NCBI RefSeq assembly: GCF_003096835.1
Contig: NZ_QENZ01000003.1
Coordinates: 620,001 to 684,000 of the forward strand
Source of the DNA: Balneicella halophila
Lineage (GTDB): Bacteria; Bacteroidota; Bacteroidia; Bacteroidales; Balneicellaceae
Length of the DNA: 64,000 nucleotides
Direction of reading: 5' to 3'
Below the pieces are notes generated by a model, which saw only the letters and a list, made by a program, of their open reading frames with translations, was not told the DNA's origin and searched no databases. The position numbers were made by a program, and so were the translations under genes. Of this stretch, positions 2,741-63,000 are shown one piece after another (positions within the stretch are counted from its first letter, which is position 1; each line of letters opens with the position of its first letter).

Positions 2741-3022
2741 TAAGGCGAGTAGCGTTAAAATGTTTAAGCACTTTAAAAAGCTACGGTATGCCTTTAGACG
2801 ATATTCGCACTTATCCGAAGTTGACGATTGTGTCGTTAACGACACCGCATTGCCTGTTGTTAAATTCAGAGTAAATATAGTTAATTTCCCCGAAAAGATA
2901 ATAAGATACTTCTCTGCCGTTCAGTATGACAATTTTCTAATAGCTAATTTTTACTTTTTAACTCTTGCGTGAGACTCTTCCTACCGTCAGAGTGACAAAA
3001 TAGATGCAGATAAACCAAGCAG
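2741..3022. other. Intergenic stretch, repeat-like, no gene called
   Basis: This stretch contains short motifs reminiscent of dispersed intergenic repeats (GCCGTTCAGTATGACA near 2918, TACCGTCAGAGTGACA near 2983). The 70-codon ORF at 2760-2972 has no family signal and is not called. Confidence 0.4.
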
Positions 3023-3118
3023 AATAGCCCCGATTGGAGTGGTTATCCTTTTTTGTGGGTGGATTGAGGCGTGGGAGAAAAAAGATAGTAACGGAAAGCG
3101 GGATTTTGGTTGCAAAAT
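3023..3118 (-). repeat. Right copy of 96-bp inverted repeat
   Basis: This is the reverse complement of the copy at 1365-1460 and has the same length. Together the pair bounds a segment of about 1.56 kb that contains the broken gene. Confidence 0.8.
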
Positions 3119-41449: not shown

Positions 41450-41479
41450 TTGGACATTACAATAAGTTATTTACCTTTG
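41450..41479 (+). promoter_or_regulatory. Promoter of the methionine operon
   Basis: TTG (41450-41452), a 19-nt spacer and TACCTTTG (41472-41479) match the consensus. The first leader ATG begins only 6 nt after the -7 box, so the predicted transcript starts at or within a few bases of that ATG. Confidence 0.75.
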
Positions 41480-41484
41480 TTCAC

Positions 41485-41559
41485 ATGAAATTGAATAAAA
41501 ATATGATGATGTCTATGATGATGAGTAAAGAAATTTACGCAAAGGACATTATTATATAA
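41485..41559 (+). CDS. Methionine-rich leader peptide 1 (24 aa)
   Basis: The small ORF reads MKLNKNMMMSMMMSKE followed by IYAKDIII and stops at TAA 41557-41559. Seven of 24 residues are Met, in two MMM triplets (codons ATGATGATG at 41503-41511 and 41515-41523). It is followed by a terminator whose left arm is complementary to its codons 19-21. It lies in front of metY-metX-aspartokinase and is best read as a regulatory peptide whose translation senses methionyl-tRNA. The transcript would be leaderless or nearly so. Confidence 0.8.
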   Translation: MKLNKNMMMSMMMSKEIYAKDIII

Positions 41560-41617
41560 CTAAATAAAAGAAATAATAATTTGAAGCCTTTGCGAGAGCA
41601 AGGGCTTTTTTGTTTTT
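41538..41617 (+). promoter_or_regulatory. Attenuator 1: antiterminator/terminator pair
   Basis: The terminator stem AAGCCTTTGC (41584-41593), loop GAGA, GCAAGGGCTT (41598-41607) is followed by TTTTGTTTTT. The alternative helix pairs CGCAAAGG (41538-41545, inside the leader's last codons) with CCTTTGCG (41587-41594), a perfect 8-bp match that destroys the terminator's left arm. A ribosome waiting at the Met codons leaves 41538-41545 free; one that reaches the stop codon masks it and allows termination. Confidence 0.75.
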
Positions 41618-41630
41618 AACTTACTAATAG

Positions 41631-41720
41631 ATGCGTTTTATAAATAACAATACTAATTCAATGATGATGGGAATGATGCAAATGATGATGCACATAATGC
41701 TATTGTATTACCCAGATTAA
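41631..41720 (+). CDS. Methionine-rich leader peptide 2 (29 aa)
   Basis: A second small ORF, with no sequence similarity to the first outside its Met runs: MRFINNNTNSMMMGMMQMMM then HIMLLYYPD and TAA at 41718-41720. Ten of 29 residues are Met. It begins just after the first terminator, so it is transcribed only when attenuator 1 is read through. It is followed by its own terminator. Confidence 0.8.
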   Translation: MRFINNNTNSMMMGMMQMMMHIMLLYYPD

Positions 41721-41783
41721 AAGAAATGAAAACTATTTTTTAGAGTCCCTTCGGTAATACATATCCAAAGGGACTTTTTTTAT
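41704..41783 (+). promoter_or_regulatory. Attenuator 2: antiterminator/terminator pair
   Basis: The terminator stem AGTCCCTT-C-GG (41744-41754) pairs with CC-A-AAGGGACT (41765-41775) with one mismatch, and is followed by a T-run to 41782. The leader segment TGTATTACC (41704-41712) is perfectly complementary to GGTAATACA (41753-41761), which covers the top of the stem and its loop. As in attenuator 1, the 5' partner sits between the last Met codons and the stop codon. Confidence 0.65.
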
Positions 41784-41815: not shown

Positions 41816-43090
41816 ATGACAAGATTATCACAAAATACTCAAGCTTTACATATAGGACATAATACCGTAGAAAATGCTGGAACTCGGGCTGTTCCTATTT
41901 ATCAAACTTCCGGTTTTGTGTTTGAAAATACAGACCATGCAGCAGATTTATTTAGTTTAAAACAACCTGGGTACATTTATACGAGATTAAATAATCCTAC
42001 CAATGACATACTGGAAAAGCGATTAGCTGCCATTGAGAGAGGGATAGGAGCAGCAGTGTTTGCTTCTGGGATGTCCGCAATATCAACGACATTATTGACT
42101 CTATTAAAGTCAGGTGACCATATAGTTGCAAGTAATAGTTTATATGGTGGTACATTTAATTTATTAAGTGTTACTCTGCCTCGCTTTGGAATAGAGACGA
42201 GCTTTGTGGATTCAAACAATTTAGAAAATATCCGTACAAATATCCATGAGAATACAAAAGTTATATTTATTGAATCTTTAGGAAATCCTAAGCTTGACAT
42301 TCCAGACATAGAGGGAATTGCAAAAATTGCACATGAAAATAAGATTCCTCTCATTGTTGACAATACCGTAACATGTCCACTGTTGCTAAATCCAATAACA
42401 TATGGAGCTAATATTGTTGTGCATTCATTAACGAAGTACATCTCTGGACAGGGCACAACTGTTGGTGGAGCTGTGATAGATGCAGGTACTTTTGATTGGG
42501 CAAGTGGTAAATTTCCAGAATTTACAGAACCATCAAAAGGATATGATGGGTTTAAATATGTAGAATCTCTCGGAGAGCTCGCCTTTATTTCAAAGCTTAG
42601 ATTAGAAGGTTTAAGAGATTTTGGTGGCTCACTAAATGCGTACGATGACTTTCAGATAATTCAGGGTTTGGAGACTTTAGATGTAAGAATACAAAAACAT
42701 TCTAAGAATGCACTAGAATTAGCTAAGTGGCTAGAAAAACAAGAAGAGGTTGATTGGGTGAACTACCCGGGTTTAGTAAGCAGTGAATACTACGAATTAG
42801 CTCAGAAGTATCTGTCTAAAGGACAAGGCGGGTTACTGACATTTGGTCTGAAAGGGGGATATGAGGCTGCTAAGAAATTCTCTAATACAACTAAATTATT
42901 CGCATTAGTAGCAAACTTAGGAGATACAAAGTCACTGCTGATACACCCAGCAAGTACTACGCACCAACAATTTAGTAAGGAAAATCAAATTGCAACCGGA
43001 GTTACTGATAATCTTATCAGGCCATCTGTAGGCTTAGAAGATGTTGAAGATCTGAAGAATGATTTATTGAATGCTTTTAAAGCCATATGA
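41816..43090 (+). CDS. metY: O-acetylhomoserine sulfhydrylase (aminocarboxypropyltransferase)
   Basis: A 424-residue Cys/Met-metabolism PLP enzyme. The N-terminus TQALHIGH (family HAGQ-type region), AVPIYQTSGFVFENTDHAA, YTRLNNPTNDILEKRLAAIE and ASGMSAI are family signatures. The PLP-binding Lys is in HSLTKYISGQGTTVGGAV. Near the C-terminus HPASTTHQQ and RPSVGLEDVEDL are present. The length (about 425) and the long insertion after the PLP lysine indicate the O-acetylhomoserine-using MetY type rather than cystathionine synthase. It makes homocysteine from O-acetylhomoserine and sulfide. It is the first gene of the operon, 33 bp after attenuator 2, and it overlaps metX by 4 bp. Confidence 0.88.
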   Translation: MTRLSQNTQALHIGHNTVENAGTRAVPIYQTSGFVFENTDHAADLFSLKQPGYIYTRLNNPTNDILEKRLAAIERGIGAAVFASGMSAISTTLLTLLKSGDHIVASNSLYGGTFNLLSVTLPRFGIETSFVDSNNLENIRTNIHENTKVIFIESLGNPKLDIPDIEGIAKIAHENKIPLIVDNTVTCPLLLNPITYGANIVVHSLTKYISGQGTTVGGAVIDAGTFDWASGKFPEFTEPSKGYDGFKYVESLGELAFISKLRLEGLRDFGGSLNAYDDFQIIQGLETLDVRIQKHSKNALELAKWLEKQEEVDWVNYPGLVSSEYYELAQKYLSKGQGGLLTFGLKGGYEAAKKFSNTTKLFALVANLGDTKSLLIHPASTTHQQFSKENQIATGVTDNLIRPSVGLEDVEDLKNDLLNAFKAI

Positions 43091-44049
43091 TGGGAATATT
43101 ACAGCACCATAAATTATATGATTTTACTACAGAAAAGGGCACTCGCTATCCAGAGTTGAGTGTTTCTTTTCAAATCTTTGGTAAAAAACTTTACAGTGCG
43201 CCAATAGTTTTAGTAAATCATGCACTTACAGGAAATTCTGATGTAGTAAGTGAGAAAAAAGGCTGGTGGAAAGAAATTGTTGGAGAAGGCAAGTTGATTG
43301 ATTTAAATAAATATACAGTTATTGCATTGAATATTCCGGGTAATGGATATGACAATATTTTTTTTAATAATTATAAGGATTTTTCCGTAAAAGATATTGC
43401 AGAGATTTTTTATAGTGTGCTCGCTGAGTTAAATGTACAAAAGTTACATGCTATTATAGGAGGCTCTTTGGGCGGATCTATAGCTTGGCAAATCGCATGT
43501 CTATATCCTTCATTTTCAGAATATATTGTTCCAATAGCCTCAGATTGGAAAGCGACTGATTGGGTTATCGGGCATAGTGCGATACAAGAAAATATCCTGC
43601 TCAATTCCAAGCAACCTTTGGAAGATGCAAGAAAGATGGCGATGTTATTTTATAGAACGCCGGCTTCTTTTACACAGAAATTCAATAGAACGAAAACTGA
43701 AGATAAATTGCAATTTAATGTAGAGTCTTGGCTAAATCATCATGGTAAGAAACTAAATGAAAGATATAAACTAAAAGCTTACTTGCTGATGAATCATTTG
43801 TTGACTACTATAAGAATAGAGGAAGACGATTTATCGCAAATACAATCAAAAATTGTTCAAATTGCCGTTAATAGTGATTTGTATTACGTTGCTGATGAAA
43901 ATATCAAAACGCAAAAAATACTCAACCAGAAAGGGATTGAGAATGAATATTATGAAATACAATCCATTCATGGGCATGATGCTTTTCTGATTGAGCATCA
44001 GCAGATTACTAATTTTTTACAGCATGTTTTTTTAATAATAAAAAAATGA
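43087..44049 (+). CDS. metX: Homoserine O-acetyltransferase (alpha/beta-hydrolase type)
   Basis: 320 residues. An alpha/beta-hydrolase with LVNHALTGNSDV, the nucleophile elbow GGSLGGSIAWQIA and the C-terminal catalytic His in IHGHDAFLIEH matches MetX. The length is at the short end of the family because the lid region is compact. It makes O-acetylhomoserine, the substrate of MetY. Start and stop overlap metY and the kinase gene by 4 bp each (ATGA), so the three are translationally coupled. Confidence 0.85.
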   Translation: MMGILQHHKLYDFTTEKGTRYPELSVSFQIFGKKLYSAPIVLVNHALTGNSDVVSEKKGWWKEIVGEGKLIDLNKYTVIALNIPGNGYDNIFFNNYKDFSVKDIAEIFYSVLAELNVQKLHAIIGGSLGGSIAWQIACLYPSFSEYIVPIASDWKATDWVIGHSAIQENILLNSKQPLEDARKMAMLFYRTPASFTQKFNRTKTEDKLQFNVESWLNHHGKKLNERYKLKAYLLMNHLLTTIRIEEDDLSQIQSKIVQIAVNSDLYYVADENIKTQKILNQKGIENEYYEIQSIHGHDAFLIEHQQITNFLQHVFLIIKK

Positions 44050-45410
44050 AAATATTAAAATTCGGAGGAAAATCTTTGTCTAATGGACAAGGAATAACGA
44101 ACGTACTATCAATTATAAGAGATAAAATCAAAAAGGATAAGGATATTGTGGTAGTATTATCGGCAAGAGGTAATGCCACTGATGGGTTAGCAAATTTGCT
44201 GGCTATGGCAAAGGAAGGGAATGATTATGAAGCACTTTTCAACCAATTTAAAGCATATCAAACCTTGCCCCTTAAGGGGAATTATTTTCAAGAGGAGTTT
44301 ATTCTAATTAGAAATTTACTAAAAGGAGTTAAACTTACAGGTGACTATACCTTGAAAATTAAAGATTTATTGTTAGCACAAGGAGAAATTCTCGCAACTA
44401 AAACAGTTGCTACTTTGCTTAATGAATTTGGTGTAAATGCGAAAGCCGTTGATAGTCGTCAGTTTCTAAAAACAGACAGTGAATTTGGTCATGCAAGTGT
44501 TTTTCAAGAAGTATCTGAGCAAAATGCTATTGAATGTTTTGCAGAAATTAATAGTGGAATTATTCCCATAATAACAGGATTTATTGCATCAAATCAGCAA
44601 GGAGAGACGACGACAATAGGGCGTAATGGGACGAACTATACTGCTTCTTTGATTGCGAATTTCTTAAATGCAAATGAGATTGAGAGTTATACTCATGTAG
44701 ATGGTATTTTTACTGCCGATCCTTCAATTGTAGACAATGCTAAAATTATCAATCAAATCACTTATTCTGAAGCGAGCCAATTATCTAATTTCGGCGCTTC
44801 AATTCTGCATTCCAAAAGCATTTATCCTTTGATTAAGAAAAACATTTCTCTAAGGATACTTAATACATTTAACGCTGACAATGAAGGTACTTTAATAAGC
44901 AATGAGAAAACACCCACAGGGATTAAATCTATCTCAGTACTAGATGACTATGCGATTATAGATATTATTGGTAAGGGTTTATTAGGAAAAGTAGGTACAG
45001 ACGCACGAATTTTCTCACGCTTAGGTGCTTTAGGGATTAGTTTTGGGATTATTTCACAAGGTTCCTCAGAGCGTGGTGTTAGCTTTATTATTCCAAATGA
45101 TGTTAAGATTTTGGCAAGAATTAGCCTCTTAGAAGAGTTTCAAAATGAAATATCGACACATGATATTCAAAGCATTAAGATAATAGATGACATCTCTGTA
45201 ATTACGGTTGTGGGTGAGAATATAGCGAATTTTTCATCTTCCATTGCTTATCTTAAACAAAATAAAATTTCAATTTTATTGGTAAATAATTCCATAAGTG
45301 AGGATAATATCAGTTTAGTTGTAGCCAAGCGAGACGCACAGAAAGCTGTAAACGTCATTCATTCACAAATTTTGTGCTATAACAACTATCAATATTGCAG
45401 TCATTGGTAA
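44046..45410 (+). CDS. thrA: Aspartate kinase, N-terminal half of a frameshifted bifunctional aspartokinase/homoserine dehydrogenase
   Basis: 454 residues. The start MKILKFGGKSLSNGQGI and then VVVLSARGNATDGLANLL are aspartokinase motifs. TTTIGRNGTNYTASLIA and HVDGIFTADPSIVDNA complete the kinase domain, followed by two ACT domains (VLDDYAIIDIIGKGLLGKVG..., IDDISVITVVGENIANF). The ORF runs past its natural end: after VNVIHSQI the frame turns into unrelated sequence and stops at 45408-45410. The next 400 bp in the +1 frame encodes homoserine dehydrogenase without a usable start codon. The ancestral protein was almost certainly one bifunctional enzyme (about 815 residues, ThrA/MetL type). The kinase half may still be active. 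Confidence 0.82.
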   Translation: MKILKFGGKSLSNGQGITNVLSIIRDKIKKDKDIVVVLSARGNATDGLANLLAMAKEGNDYEALFNQFKAYQTLPLKGNYFQEEFILIRNLLKGVKLTGDYTLKIKDLLLAQGEILATKTVATLLNEFGVNAKAVDSRQFLKTDSEFGHASVFQEVSEQNAIECFAEINSGIIPIITGFIASNQQGETTTIGRNGTNYTASLIANFLNANEIESYTHVDGIFTADPSIVDNAKIINQITYSEASQLSNFGASILHSKSIYPLIKKNISLRILNTFNADNEGTLISNEKTPTGIKSISVLDDYAIIDIIGKGLLGKVGTDARIFSRLGALGISFGIISQGSSERGVSFIIPNDVKILARISLLEEFQNEISTHDIQSIKIIDDISVITVVGENIANFSSSIAYLKQNKISILLVNNSISEDNISLVVAKRDAQKAVNVIHSQILCYNNYQYCSHW

Positions 45411-46473
45411 AGGGACAGTAGGTGGTTCATTGATTAATCAGATATTAAAATCCAAGAAGAAAATACTGGAAAAGAAAAACCTGAATCTAAACATCTTTGC
45501 GATTGCAGGTTCTGAAAAACTGTTGTTGAACGAAAAAGGAATTTCTAAAAATTGGCGAAAAGAAATAGAAAGTGTGTCAGTTTCTAAACACCATACCACA
45601 GCTATTATTGACTATGCAACTGCCAATCATTTAGAGAATTTAGTAGCAATTGATAATACATCGAGTGCTGATTTTGTTGAAAATTATGTCACATATATTG
45701 AGAACGGATTTGATTTGATATCATCACATAAGATTGCTAATACACAACAGTATACAAAATACAAAAACCTAAGAAGTTGCCTGAAAAAATACAATAAAAC
45801 ATATTTGTATGAGACTAATGTGGGTGCCGGTCTTCCTATAATTGACACTATTAGAGTATTGCATGAGTCAGGAGAAAATATTACCCGAATAAAAGGGGTG
45901 TTTTCCGGCTCTTTAAGCTATTTGTTCAATTCATTTTCTGAAAGCGACAAACCTTTTAGTTACTTTTTAAAAAAGGCAGTTAAAAAAGGTTATACAGAAC
46001 CAGATCCAAGAAAGGATTTAAGCGGAAATGATGTGGCAAGAAAGCTTTTGATTTTAGCAAGAGAACTGGACTTAGAGAATGAATTTGATGATATTGTGAT
46101 AGACAATTTAATTCCCAAGGAATTGAGGGATGTGGAAACTCAACAATTTTTTAAAAATATTGAGAAAATTGATGAGTTTTATAAATATAAGAGAGCTGAA
46201 TTAAAGAAAGGTGAAGTGTTACGATATATTGGCGATTTATCAGGTAATCTGCAAGAAAACAAGGGAGATTTAAAGGTTTCGTTAGTCAAAGTTCCTAATG
46301 ATAGTCCACTGGGTAGCTTAAAAGGTTCCGACTCTATTTTTGAAATTTATACAGAATCATATAATGATAATCCTATAACGATAATAGGTGCAGGTGCAGG
46401 TGCAGGTGCAGGTGCTGATGTTACTGCACGTGGTGTATTTGGTGACTTATTGAGGGTTGCGGATAAAAAATAA
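45352..46473 (+). pseudogene. thrA: Homoserine dehydrogenase half of the frameshifted bifunctional enzyme
   Basis: The frame is open from 45352 (after TAA at 45349-45351), and recognisable dehydrogenase begins ITTINIAVIGKGTVGGSL (from about 45379), the NAD(P)-binding Rossmann motif. No ATG lies upstream of that motif in this frame. The first standard initiator, TTG at 45430, would delete it, so the frame appears to be entered from the kinase frame by a shift of one base around 45369-45378. GVFSGSLSYLFNSF and TEPDPRKDLSGNDVARK supply the catalytic region. Near the C-terminus a hexanucleotide GGTGCA run makes IGAGAGAGAGADVTARG, longer than the usual motif. The enzyme reduces aspartate semialdehyde to homoserine, feeding MetX. 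If the shift is real and not programmed or an assembly error, this half is silent. Confidence 0.75.
46387..46416 (+). repeat. Hexanucleotide repeat (GGTGCA)4-GGTGCT in the dehydrogenase coding sequence
   Basis: Four perfect GGTGCA copies and a fifth with one change encode alternating Gly-Ala within the conserved C-terminal glycine-rich loop. The length is a multiple of three, so slippage would change loop length without shifting the frame. Confidence 0.85.
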
Positions 46474-46626: not shown

Positions 46627-47379
46627 ATGAAGCTTTTTGCCTCTGAGAATAAGTTTTTTATTACTAATGTGAAACCTTTTATGCCTGAGGCTATAAGTGA
46701 GGAAAACATTGTCAATAGTTATGAGTTTGCTTATCAAATGACTTTCGGTAGCGGGCATCATCGAAATCATCGCTCTGGGGGACAAAATAACAGAAAAAAT
46801 GGAGAGTTATTTGGAAATACTTTTCAAGGTAAGTTAGCCGAATATGTGACATACAATAAATTTAAAGATGAGGGTTTAGCGGACATTATTTTGCCTGATG
46901 TCTCTGTACATGGAAGAGGTATTTGGGATGATACAGACTTAGAATACCGAGGGAAGAAAATCAACATTAAATCGTGTGCTTTTTTCTCTAATTTGTTGCT
47001 ATTAGAACAAAAGGATTGGAATCAAGATGGTCAATATATTCCGAATTTGAATAATGGAGCAAGCAAGAATTATGATTATTTTGTGTTAGTTAGGATAAAG
47101 CCAGACATTAAACGATTACTTCAAAAAGAACAGCTACTTTACTCCAATAAAAATGAAAAATCGAAGATAAGCAAGATTATTAGTTGTAACAATTGGTATT
47201 ATGATTTTGCAGGAGTTTGCAGTCGGGAAACGATTAAATATATTATAGCAAACAACTACCTACTACCACAAGATGCACTGCTCAATGGCACTATTTCAAT
47301 GGATGCTTCCAATTATTATATTCAAAGTGGTAGTTTGAAAAACATAAGCGTGCTAATAAATACACTACGCAATATGTAA
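46627..47379 (+). CDS. Unknown protein with PD-(D/E)xK nuclease-like features
   Basis: A 250-residue protein without signal peptide or membrane segment. The central part resembles a restriction-endonuclease fold: helix with Glu72 in FQGKLAEYVTYNKF, Asp91 in IILPDVSV, an acidic cluster WDDTDLEYRGKKINIKSC (100-117) with candidate Asp104 and Lys115. In a canonical site the residue two before the Lys is Asp or Glu; here it is Asn113, so the site would be a variant. The downstream half is rich in aromatic and Asn residues. No methyltransferase or partner gene is adjacent. It sits alone between the methionine operon and leuB, so it is probably an accessory gene. A role in DNA cleavage is a hypothesis. 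Confidence 0.45.
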   Translation: MKLFASENKFFITNVKPFMPEAISEENIVNSYEFAYQMTFGSGHHRNHRSGGQNNRKNGELFGNTFQGKLAEYVTYNKFKDEGLADIILPDVSVHGRGIWDDTDLEYRGKKINIKSCAFFSNLLLLEQKDWNQDGQYIPNLNNGASKNYDYFVLVRIKPDIKRLLQKEQLLYSNKNEKSKISKIISCNNWYYDFAGVCSRETIKYIIANNYLLPQDALLNGTISMDASNYYIQSGSLKNISVLINTLRNM

Positions 47380-62828: not shown

Positions 62829-62882
62829 TTTTTTAAGTTGTTTTAGTTAATACTTAATAAAGAATGAGGTTATTACATTTTT

Positions 62883-62963
62883 AGAATCCCTACGTCAGCA
62901 TTATCTGAACAGGTTCTGTGGGTGTAATCTCAGCAACTGCTTTTTGCAGGAGCACCCCATTCT
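62883..62963 (-). ncRNA. TPP riboswitch (THI element)
   Basis: On the minus strand the RNA contains GGGGTGCTCC, GCTGAGATTACACCC, GAACCTGTTCAGATAATG and CTGACGTAGGGA in the order of the TPP aptamer. The P1 stem is closed by AGAAT (62963-62959) with ATTCT (62887-62883). The 54 bp between the aptamer and the receptor ATG show no terminator, so control is probably at translation initiation. This fixes the downstream receptor as part of the thiamine regulon. Confidence 0.93.
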
Positions 62964-63000
62964 CTATAGTTAAATCATTGGCAAATGTAGCCAATTAATA

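Follow-up and report, generated by a model that had tools for sequence, protein, structure and literature searches.

Two probable leader-peptide attenuators in series, with methionine sensing codons, precede the metY operon of Balneicella halophila

Organization of the metY leader region

We analyzed a stretch of 64,000 nucleotides from Balneicella halophila (RefSeq assembly GCF_003096835.1, contig NZ_QENZ01000003.1, positions 620,001–684,000; hereafter the window), in which an operon beginning with metY is preceded by two short open reading frames (ORFs) rich in methionine (Met) codons, each followed by an intrinsic terminator. The genes downstream of both leaders are those of the synthesis of methionine, the amino acid that would be sensed. 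The element is real, conserved and well formed, a probable tandem attenuator with Met sensing codons. Its components, in window coordinates, are:

41450–41479 (+): Bacteroidota-type promoter, with TTG at 41450–41452 and TACCTTTG at 41472–41479 (consensus TAnnTTTG)
41485–41559 (+): leader peptide ORF 1, MKLNKNMMMSMMMSKEIYAKDIII*, 24 codons
41501–41557 (+): competing 1:2 hairpin of attenuator 1, in which the Met-codon strand 41501–41514 pairs with 41544–41557
41538–41545 (+): antiterminator strand of attenuator 1, CGCAAAGG, the perfect complement of CCTTTGCG at 41587–41594
41583–41608 (+): stem of intrinsic terminator 1 (11 bp, GAGA loop, −16.3 kcal/mol), with a U-run at 41606–41611
41631–41720 (+): leader peptide ORF 2, MRFINNNTNSMMMGMMQMMMHIMLLYYPD*, nine internal Met codons
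41704–41712 (+): antiterminator strand of attenuator 2, TGTATTACC, pairing with GGTAATACA at 41753–41761
41743–41776 (+): intrinsic terminator 2, GAGTCCCTTCGG...CCAAAGGGACTT, with a U-run to 41780
41816–43090 (+): metY, O-acetylhomoserine sulfhydrylase, first gene of the operon (TIGR01326, 596 bits, above cut-off)
43087–44049 (+): metX-like homoserine O-acyltransferase (TIGR01392, E 3e-53, below the curated cut-off)
44046–45410 (+): aspartokinase, matching the N-terminal half of bifunctional aspartokinase/homoserine dehydrogenase (TIGR00657 above cut-off; NF006959 positions 1–460)
45430–46473 (+): homoserine dehydrogenase, matching the C-terminal half of that enzyme (NF006959 positions 480–814)

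A first-pass annotation of the region had described a 24-codon Met-rich ORF with two ATGATGATG triplets, and this ORF is present where it was placed, its regulatory Met codons occupying 41503–41511 and 41515–41523. The complementarity proposed between the leader and the terminator, 41538–41545 against 41587–41594, is a perfect 8-nt match; the energy of the cognate duplex is −13.4 kcal/mol (codon-shuffle p 0.003). The GC-rich terminator with its T-run is likewise found, with a stem of 11 bp rather than 10, and the metY-metX-aspartokinase gene order stands once the omitted homoserine dehydrogenase frame is added after aspartokinase. The annotated interval describes attenuator 1 correctly but covers only the first of what are two attenuators in series. 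In both units the gap from leader ORF to terminator is 22–23 nt, and in the second, GGTAATACA comprises the terminator loop and the upper part of its left arm. The 142-nt leader folds 5.7 standard deviations better than its dinucleotide shuffles, none of 200 of which equalled it.

Chance does not account for the Met clusters. ATGATGATGNNNATGATG occurs three times in its 2.09 Mb, twice in this 160-nt leader stretch and once within a long gene, and among 24 genome matches to a relaxed Met-cluster pattern solely those at 41503–41687 lie outside long frames and form a Met-rich short ORF (sORF) that a terminator follows. The remaining matches lie in long frames or lack terminators. When both strands of the window were scanned for sORFs starting with ATG and followed 10–60 nt on by a terminator, the Met-rich ones were leaders 1 and 2 only.

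Conservation upstream of metY

Searches with the MetY protein covered 295 genomes of the order, the families of two matches and 395 genomes of the class, and the upstream regions of 154 metY homologues were gathered (relatives are denoted below by our own identifiers). A Met-rich leader with a terminator precedes metY in the B. halophila genome itself (G000), in G095 (family f96), in G516 (f139) and in family f87, where 12 of the 14 metY carriers have the leader, three of them with a weak U-run or no automatically called hairpin. The first-pass annotation had proposed a search for such sORFs before related operons, and there they do recur. Leaders mixing Met and cysteine (Cys) codons are found in f173 (G571, G428, G393), f130, f122 and f156, and the leader layout before metY extends to at least eight families, that of the window included. 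Tandem pairs occur in G000, G095, G305, G516, G571, G393, G564, G475 and G554, and the distance from stop codon to hairpin is 19–32 nt in most leaders.

Terminator-associated sORFs upstream of 148 metY homologues are enriched 5.1-fold in Met (p 6e-39) and 2.3-fold in Cys (p 1e-9), where the p-values assume an independence of residues and genomes that is untrue, so that the evidence lies in the contrast between residues and between strands. Apart from a 1.4-fold excess of Asn, the remaining residues are hardly enriched if at all, and no residue is enriched on the reverse strand.

Leaders with both Met and Cys codons were also seen before metY in L153, L155, L158, L159, L169, L226, L228, L233 and L247. 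Their codon content suggests that mixed leaders in other families of the class sense both sulphur amino acids. L166, L173 and L176 carry Met/Cys/His-rich sORFs before metY with no clear terminator, for which they were left out of the leader counts; these sORFs possibly act on translation.

In a strict pattern search of the 295 genomes of the order, the matches that proved to be leaders were those of the window and of G095 (1720–1740, directly upstream of metY). The matches checked, on the forward strand, were mostly acidic-repeat genes and frame-shifted runs. A MetY scan of named genomes returned mainly Bacillota and one close relative, Cerina litoralis (L001), in which metY has no leader and comes after the apparent end of metK.

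Exchange with SAM-I riboswitches

Among metY genes roughly 65–69% identical to that of the window, some have leaders (G095, G516, G571, G428, G393) and others carry an S-adenosylmethionine (SAM) riboswitch of the SAM-I class at the same place (L154, L156, L157, L160, L161); more distant metY genes also carry SAM-I. No SAM-I element (RF00162) was found in the window, in the rest of the G000 genome, or in G086 and G095, and there is no T-box among the Rfam matches of the window at gathering scores. The Met leader of the first-pass annotation holds; its picture omits both the Cys-containing relatives and this exchange.

In L172, L175, L180 and L232, SAM-I upstream of metY precedes an sORF that closes with a run of Cys or of mixed Met and Cys codons (MMMCCMCCCMY* and STCCCCCC* are examples). 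This arrangement is possibly a two-input gate.

Alternative pairing of leader and terminator

For 26 leaders we calculated the energy of the duplex that the ORF's 3' end forms with the terminator's loop and left arm. Cognate pairs average −13.95 kcal/mol versus −9.65 kcal/mol for swapped pairs, and none of 20,000 permutations was as good. In f87 (five sequences), pairing in the ten-pair antiterminator helix amounts to 98%, five cells show double-sided compensatory changes, and one position varies between G-C, C-G, U-A and U-G; pairing falls to 20–53% when the helix is slid by 1–3 columns. The second-leader pairing, TATTACC/GGTAATA, is identical in the window, G095 and G516 and becomes TATTGCC/GGCAATA in G305. 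One MAFFT alignment (A2) shifted G305 by a column and was therefore kept out of the pair counts. Together, these results argue that the alternative pairing is under selection. In leader 2 of L155 the tested segment gives −2.6 kcal/mol and no antiterminator; a complementarity, TCCAAAAG/CTTTTGGA, lies just 3' of the stop codon, outside that segment.

Predicted transcription start

The TAnnTTTG box of Flavobacterium psychrophilum sits at −12 to −5 (PMC9723704), and this spacing, applied to the TACCTTTG box, places the predicted transcription start at about 41484, 1 nt before the ATG of leader 1. The box is found upstream of most first leaders, at 4–6 nt from the first ATG in the window, G095, G516 and L226 and at 16–55 nt in most others showing it. 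In tandem pairs whose order is clear, no second leader has a TAnnTTTG box (window, G095, G305, G516, G571 and G564), and each tandem pair therefore looks like a single transcript with two checkpoints. The predicted start is at the leader ATG or no more than 1–2 nt from it in the window (41485), L085, L153 and L226; such leaders may be translated from leaderless mRNA.

Simulated switch behaviour

For folding, we masked the RNA under the ribosome and ended the transcript before the 3' arm of the terminator. In attenuator 1 the predicted antiterminator pairing reaches 0.94–1.00 whichever Met codon holds the stalled ribosome, drops to 0.15 when no ribosome is present and is 0 with the ribosome at the stop codon, which in the model is the three-state behaviour of classical attenuators. 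The corresponding values for attenuator 2 are about 0.80 at most stall positions, 0.77 and 0; a 1:2 hairpin protecting the terminator when translation is absent is clear in the first unit (0.15) and not in the second (0.77). Over 31 leaders, simulated upstream pairing of the terminator arm averages 0.54 when stalled versus 0.11 at the stop codon and is more than 0.1 higher in 29 of them, the stop-codon value being partly a product of the masking itself. The stalling geometry put forward in the first-pass annotation is reproduced by the model, in which the antiterminator forms before the 3' arm of the terminator emerges and a ribosome at the stop codon abolishes the pairing.

Proposed mechanism and its alternatives

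From the parts of the two units, their geometry, their conservation and their conserved alternative pairings, we infer that the ORFs are translated, that ribosomes stall within them, and that the units follow a two-step logic in response to methionine. We consider it highly probable that two serial ribosome-mediated attenuators sense charged methionyl elongator tRNA and control the metY-metX-aspartokinase/homoserine dehydrogenase operon. RNA polymerase would start at about 41484 and a ribosome would initiate leader ORF 1 at 41485. With ample Met-tRNA, the ribosome would reach the stop codon and cover 41538–41545, terminator 1 would form, and the transcript would end near 41611. With scarce Met-tRNA, the ribosome would stall at the Met codons and occupy the strand whose alternative partner is the last part of the ORF; the freed antiterminator would capture the left arm of terminator 1 while the right arm is still to be made, and the polymerase would go on. 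Leader 2 would repeat the check (41704–41712 with 41753–41761), so that a full-length mRNA would need two starvation decisions. Since equilibrium favours the complete terminator in most states, the switching must occur kinetically, for which coupling of polymerase and ribosome is needed.

Several observations weigh against this model: (i) at equilibrium, full-length RNA is mostly in the terminator form even when the ribosome is stalled (P about 0.9 for attenuator 1); (ii) the case for an antiterminator is weaker in attenuator 2, where the strand meets just the loop and the upper left arm and pairs without a ribosome (0.77) nearly as well as with a stalled one; (iii) the three second leaders with the TATTACC pairing (L084, L085, L153) do not rise above codon shuffles; (iv) two of the 14 metY genes of f87 have no leader, and counts across related genomes are not independent; and (v) because methionine also starts every protein, its shortage should deplete formylmethionyl-tRNA (fMet-tRNA) as well and slow initiation, and an uninitiated leader should terminate. 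The 6–9 clustered internal Met codons could make elongation more sensitive than the single initiation step, which would solve the fMet puzzle. As for the second unit, antiterminator and lower stem would jointly form a pseudoknot in which only some 4 nt would have to span a helix of 9 bp, an arrangement that we judge unfavourable.

Nascent-chain arrest, in which the peptide would sense free methionine or SAM in the exit tunnel and halt the ribosome through its own sequence, like TnaC or plant CGS1, rather than report the charging of Met-tRNA, is improbable. It would account for the short conserved ending YYPD/YYPN of the second leader in the window, G095 and G516, but the antiterminator is made up of the codons for this ending, and G305 keeps the RNA pairing (TATTGCC/GGCAATA) with an altered peptide (PPLLP). 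The leaders otherwise share just their Met/Cys content, and arrest on excess product would require the opposite polarity of the RNA switch. We give still less credence to a Met- or SAM-sensing aptamer that controls the terminators with the ORF incidental: related genomes do have metY under SAM-I at the same place, yet no Rfam family matches the leader region, no structure is evident there beyond terminator and antiterminator, and Met codons are its most enriched feature.

It is very unlikely that the ORFs code for Met/Cys-rich micropeptides with a function of their own, such as copper binding, with the terminators unrelated or defining a small RNA. Met/Cys-rich peptides can bind copper and the terminators would release short transcripts, but the peptides diverge freely save for their Met/Cys content, are located before metY, are replaced by SAM-I riboswitches in relatives, and have 3' codons that pair with the terminator arm. 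Equally unlikely are constitutive or vestigial terminators, with leaders that lower basal expression and no methionine response left in this genome, for although the terminators are thermodynamically dominant, both leaders and antiterminators are intact and relatives keep the alternative pairing by selection.

Beyond ribosome-mediated attenuation of this one operon, we propose as a tentative extension, somewhat less likely than not, that metY in Bacteroidota is under the control of a class-wide, hitherto undescribed family of sulphur amino-acid attenuators that read Met alone or Met together with Cys. Its members would swap with SAM-I or be stacked behind it as two-input gates reading SAM and tRNA charging, and in some leaders, the window's among them, a position at or no more than 1–2 nt from the predicted transcript end would let Met shortage hit both initiation and elongation.

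Relation to known systems

Leader-peptide attenuation is textbook control for Trp, His, Thr, Phe and the branched-chain amino acids, and Vitreschak, in 2004, is said to have listed attenuators in Bacteroidetes/Chlorobi for other amino acids. The B. halophila system resembles the trp, his, thr, ilv and phe attenuators of the Yanofsky model in its short ORF rich in end-product codons, its 1:2 hairpin (attenuator 1), its antiterminator overlapping the 3' end of the ORF, its intrinsic terminator and the biosynthetic operon downstream. Unlike them, it would sense Met, which is also the initiating residue, has two units in series, and has an ATG 1 nt from the predicted start. The Met T-boxes of Lactobacillales also read Met-tRNA charging via transcription antitermination, but bind uncharged tRNA directly and have no leader ORF, whereas the SAM-I element (S-box), found at the same place before the same gene in close metY relatives, senses SAM directly by its aptamer.

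Within the same phylum, a study of F. psychrophilum (Guerin et al. 2021, PMC9723704) describes 'strong clues' that leader peptides attenuate amino-acid operons and names structured 5' elements before pheA and hisG; methionine is absent from its main text. The cysteine leader attenuators of Actinobacteria (PMC1262725) likewise sense a sulphur amino acid through a leader ORF and differ in phylum and genes; the mixed Cys and Met codons in some relatives of the window leader are a further likeness to them. The same source gives no RNA element before Actinobacterial methionine operons, and polycysteine upstream ORFs are reported from mycobacteria (PMC13236596). According to PMC2965389, leader peptides were previously known just in Proteobacteria and Actinobacteria, to which that paper adds Firmicutes.

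The first-pass annotation knew of no established methionine leader attenuator, and full-text searches on methionine, attenuation and leaders found none, a scope outside which Vitreschak 2004, Lopatovskaya 2010 and the supplement of PMC9723704 lie. The class of mechanism is known; Met specificity, the tandem layout and the SAM-I exchange appear to be new, provisionally. If the attenuator model is true, Bacteroidota have a further way of controlling methionine, in addition to SAM riboswitches, T-boxes and repressors. The SAM-I swap before the same gene in close relatives would offer a natural system for the change of an RNA switch from metabolite sensing to tRNA-charging sensing. The model is directly testable by reporter.

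Neighbouring features

The homoserine dehydrogenase frame is open upstream of its listed start and includes a GKGTVGG motif there (window 45365–45430). Aspartokinase and homoserine dehydrogenase therefore probably belong to a single reading frame that a shift of one base has interrupted, whether real or an assembly error. Directly after the operon lies a 250-amino-acid ORF (46627–47379, +) with no Pfam match. Elsewhere in the window, the Flavo-1 RNA motif (RF01705), for which we know of no function, has two matches, at 3022–3109 (+) and 1374–1461 (−), and a thiamine pyrophosphate (TPP) riboswitch (RF00059) lies at 62870–62969 (−).
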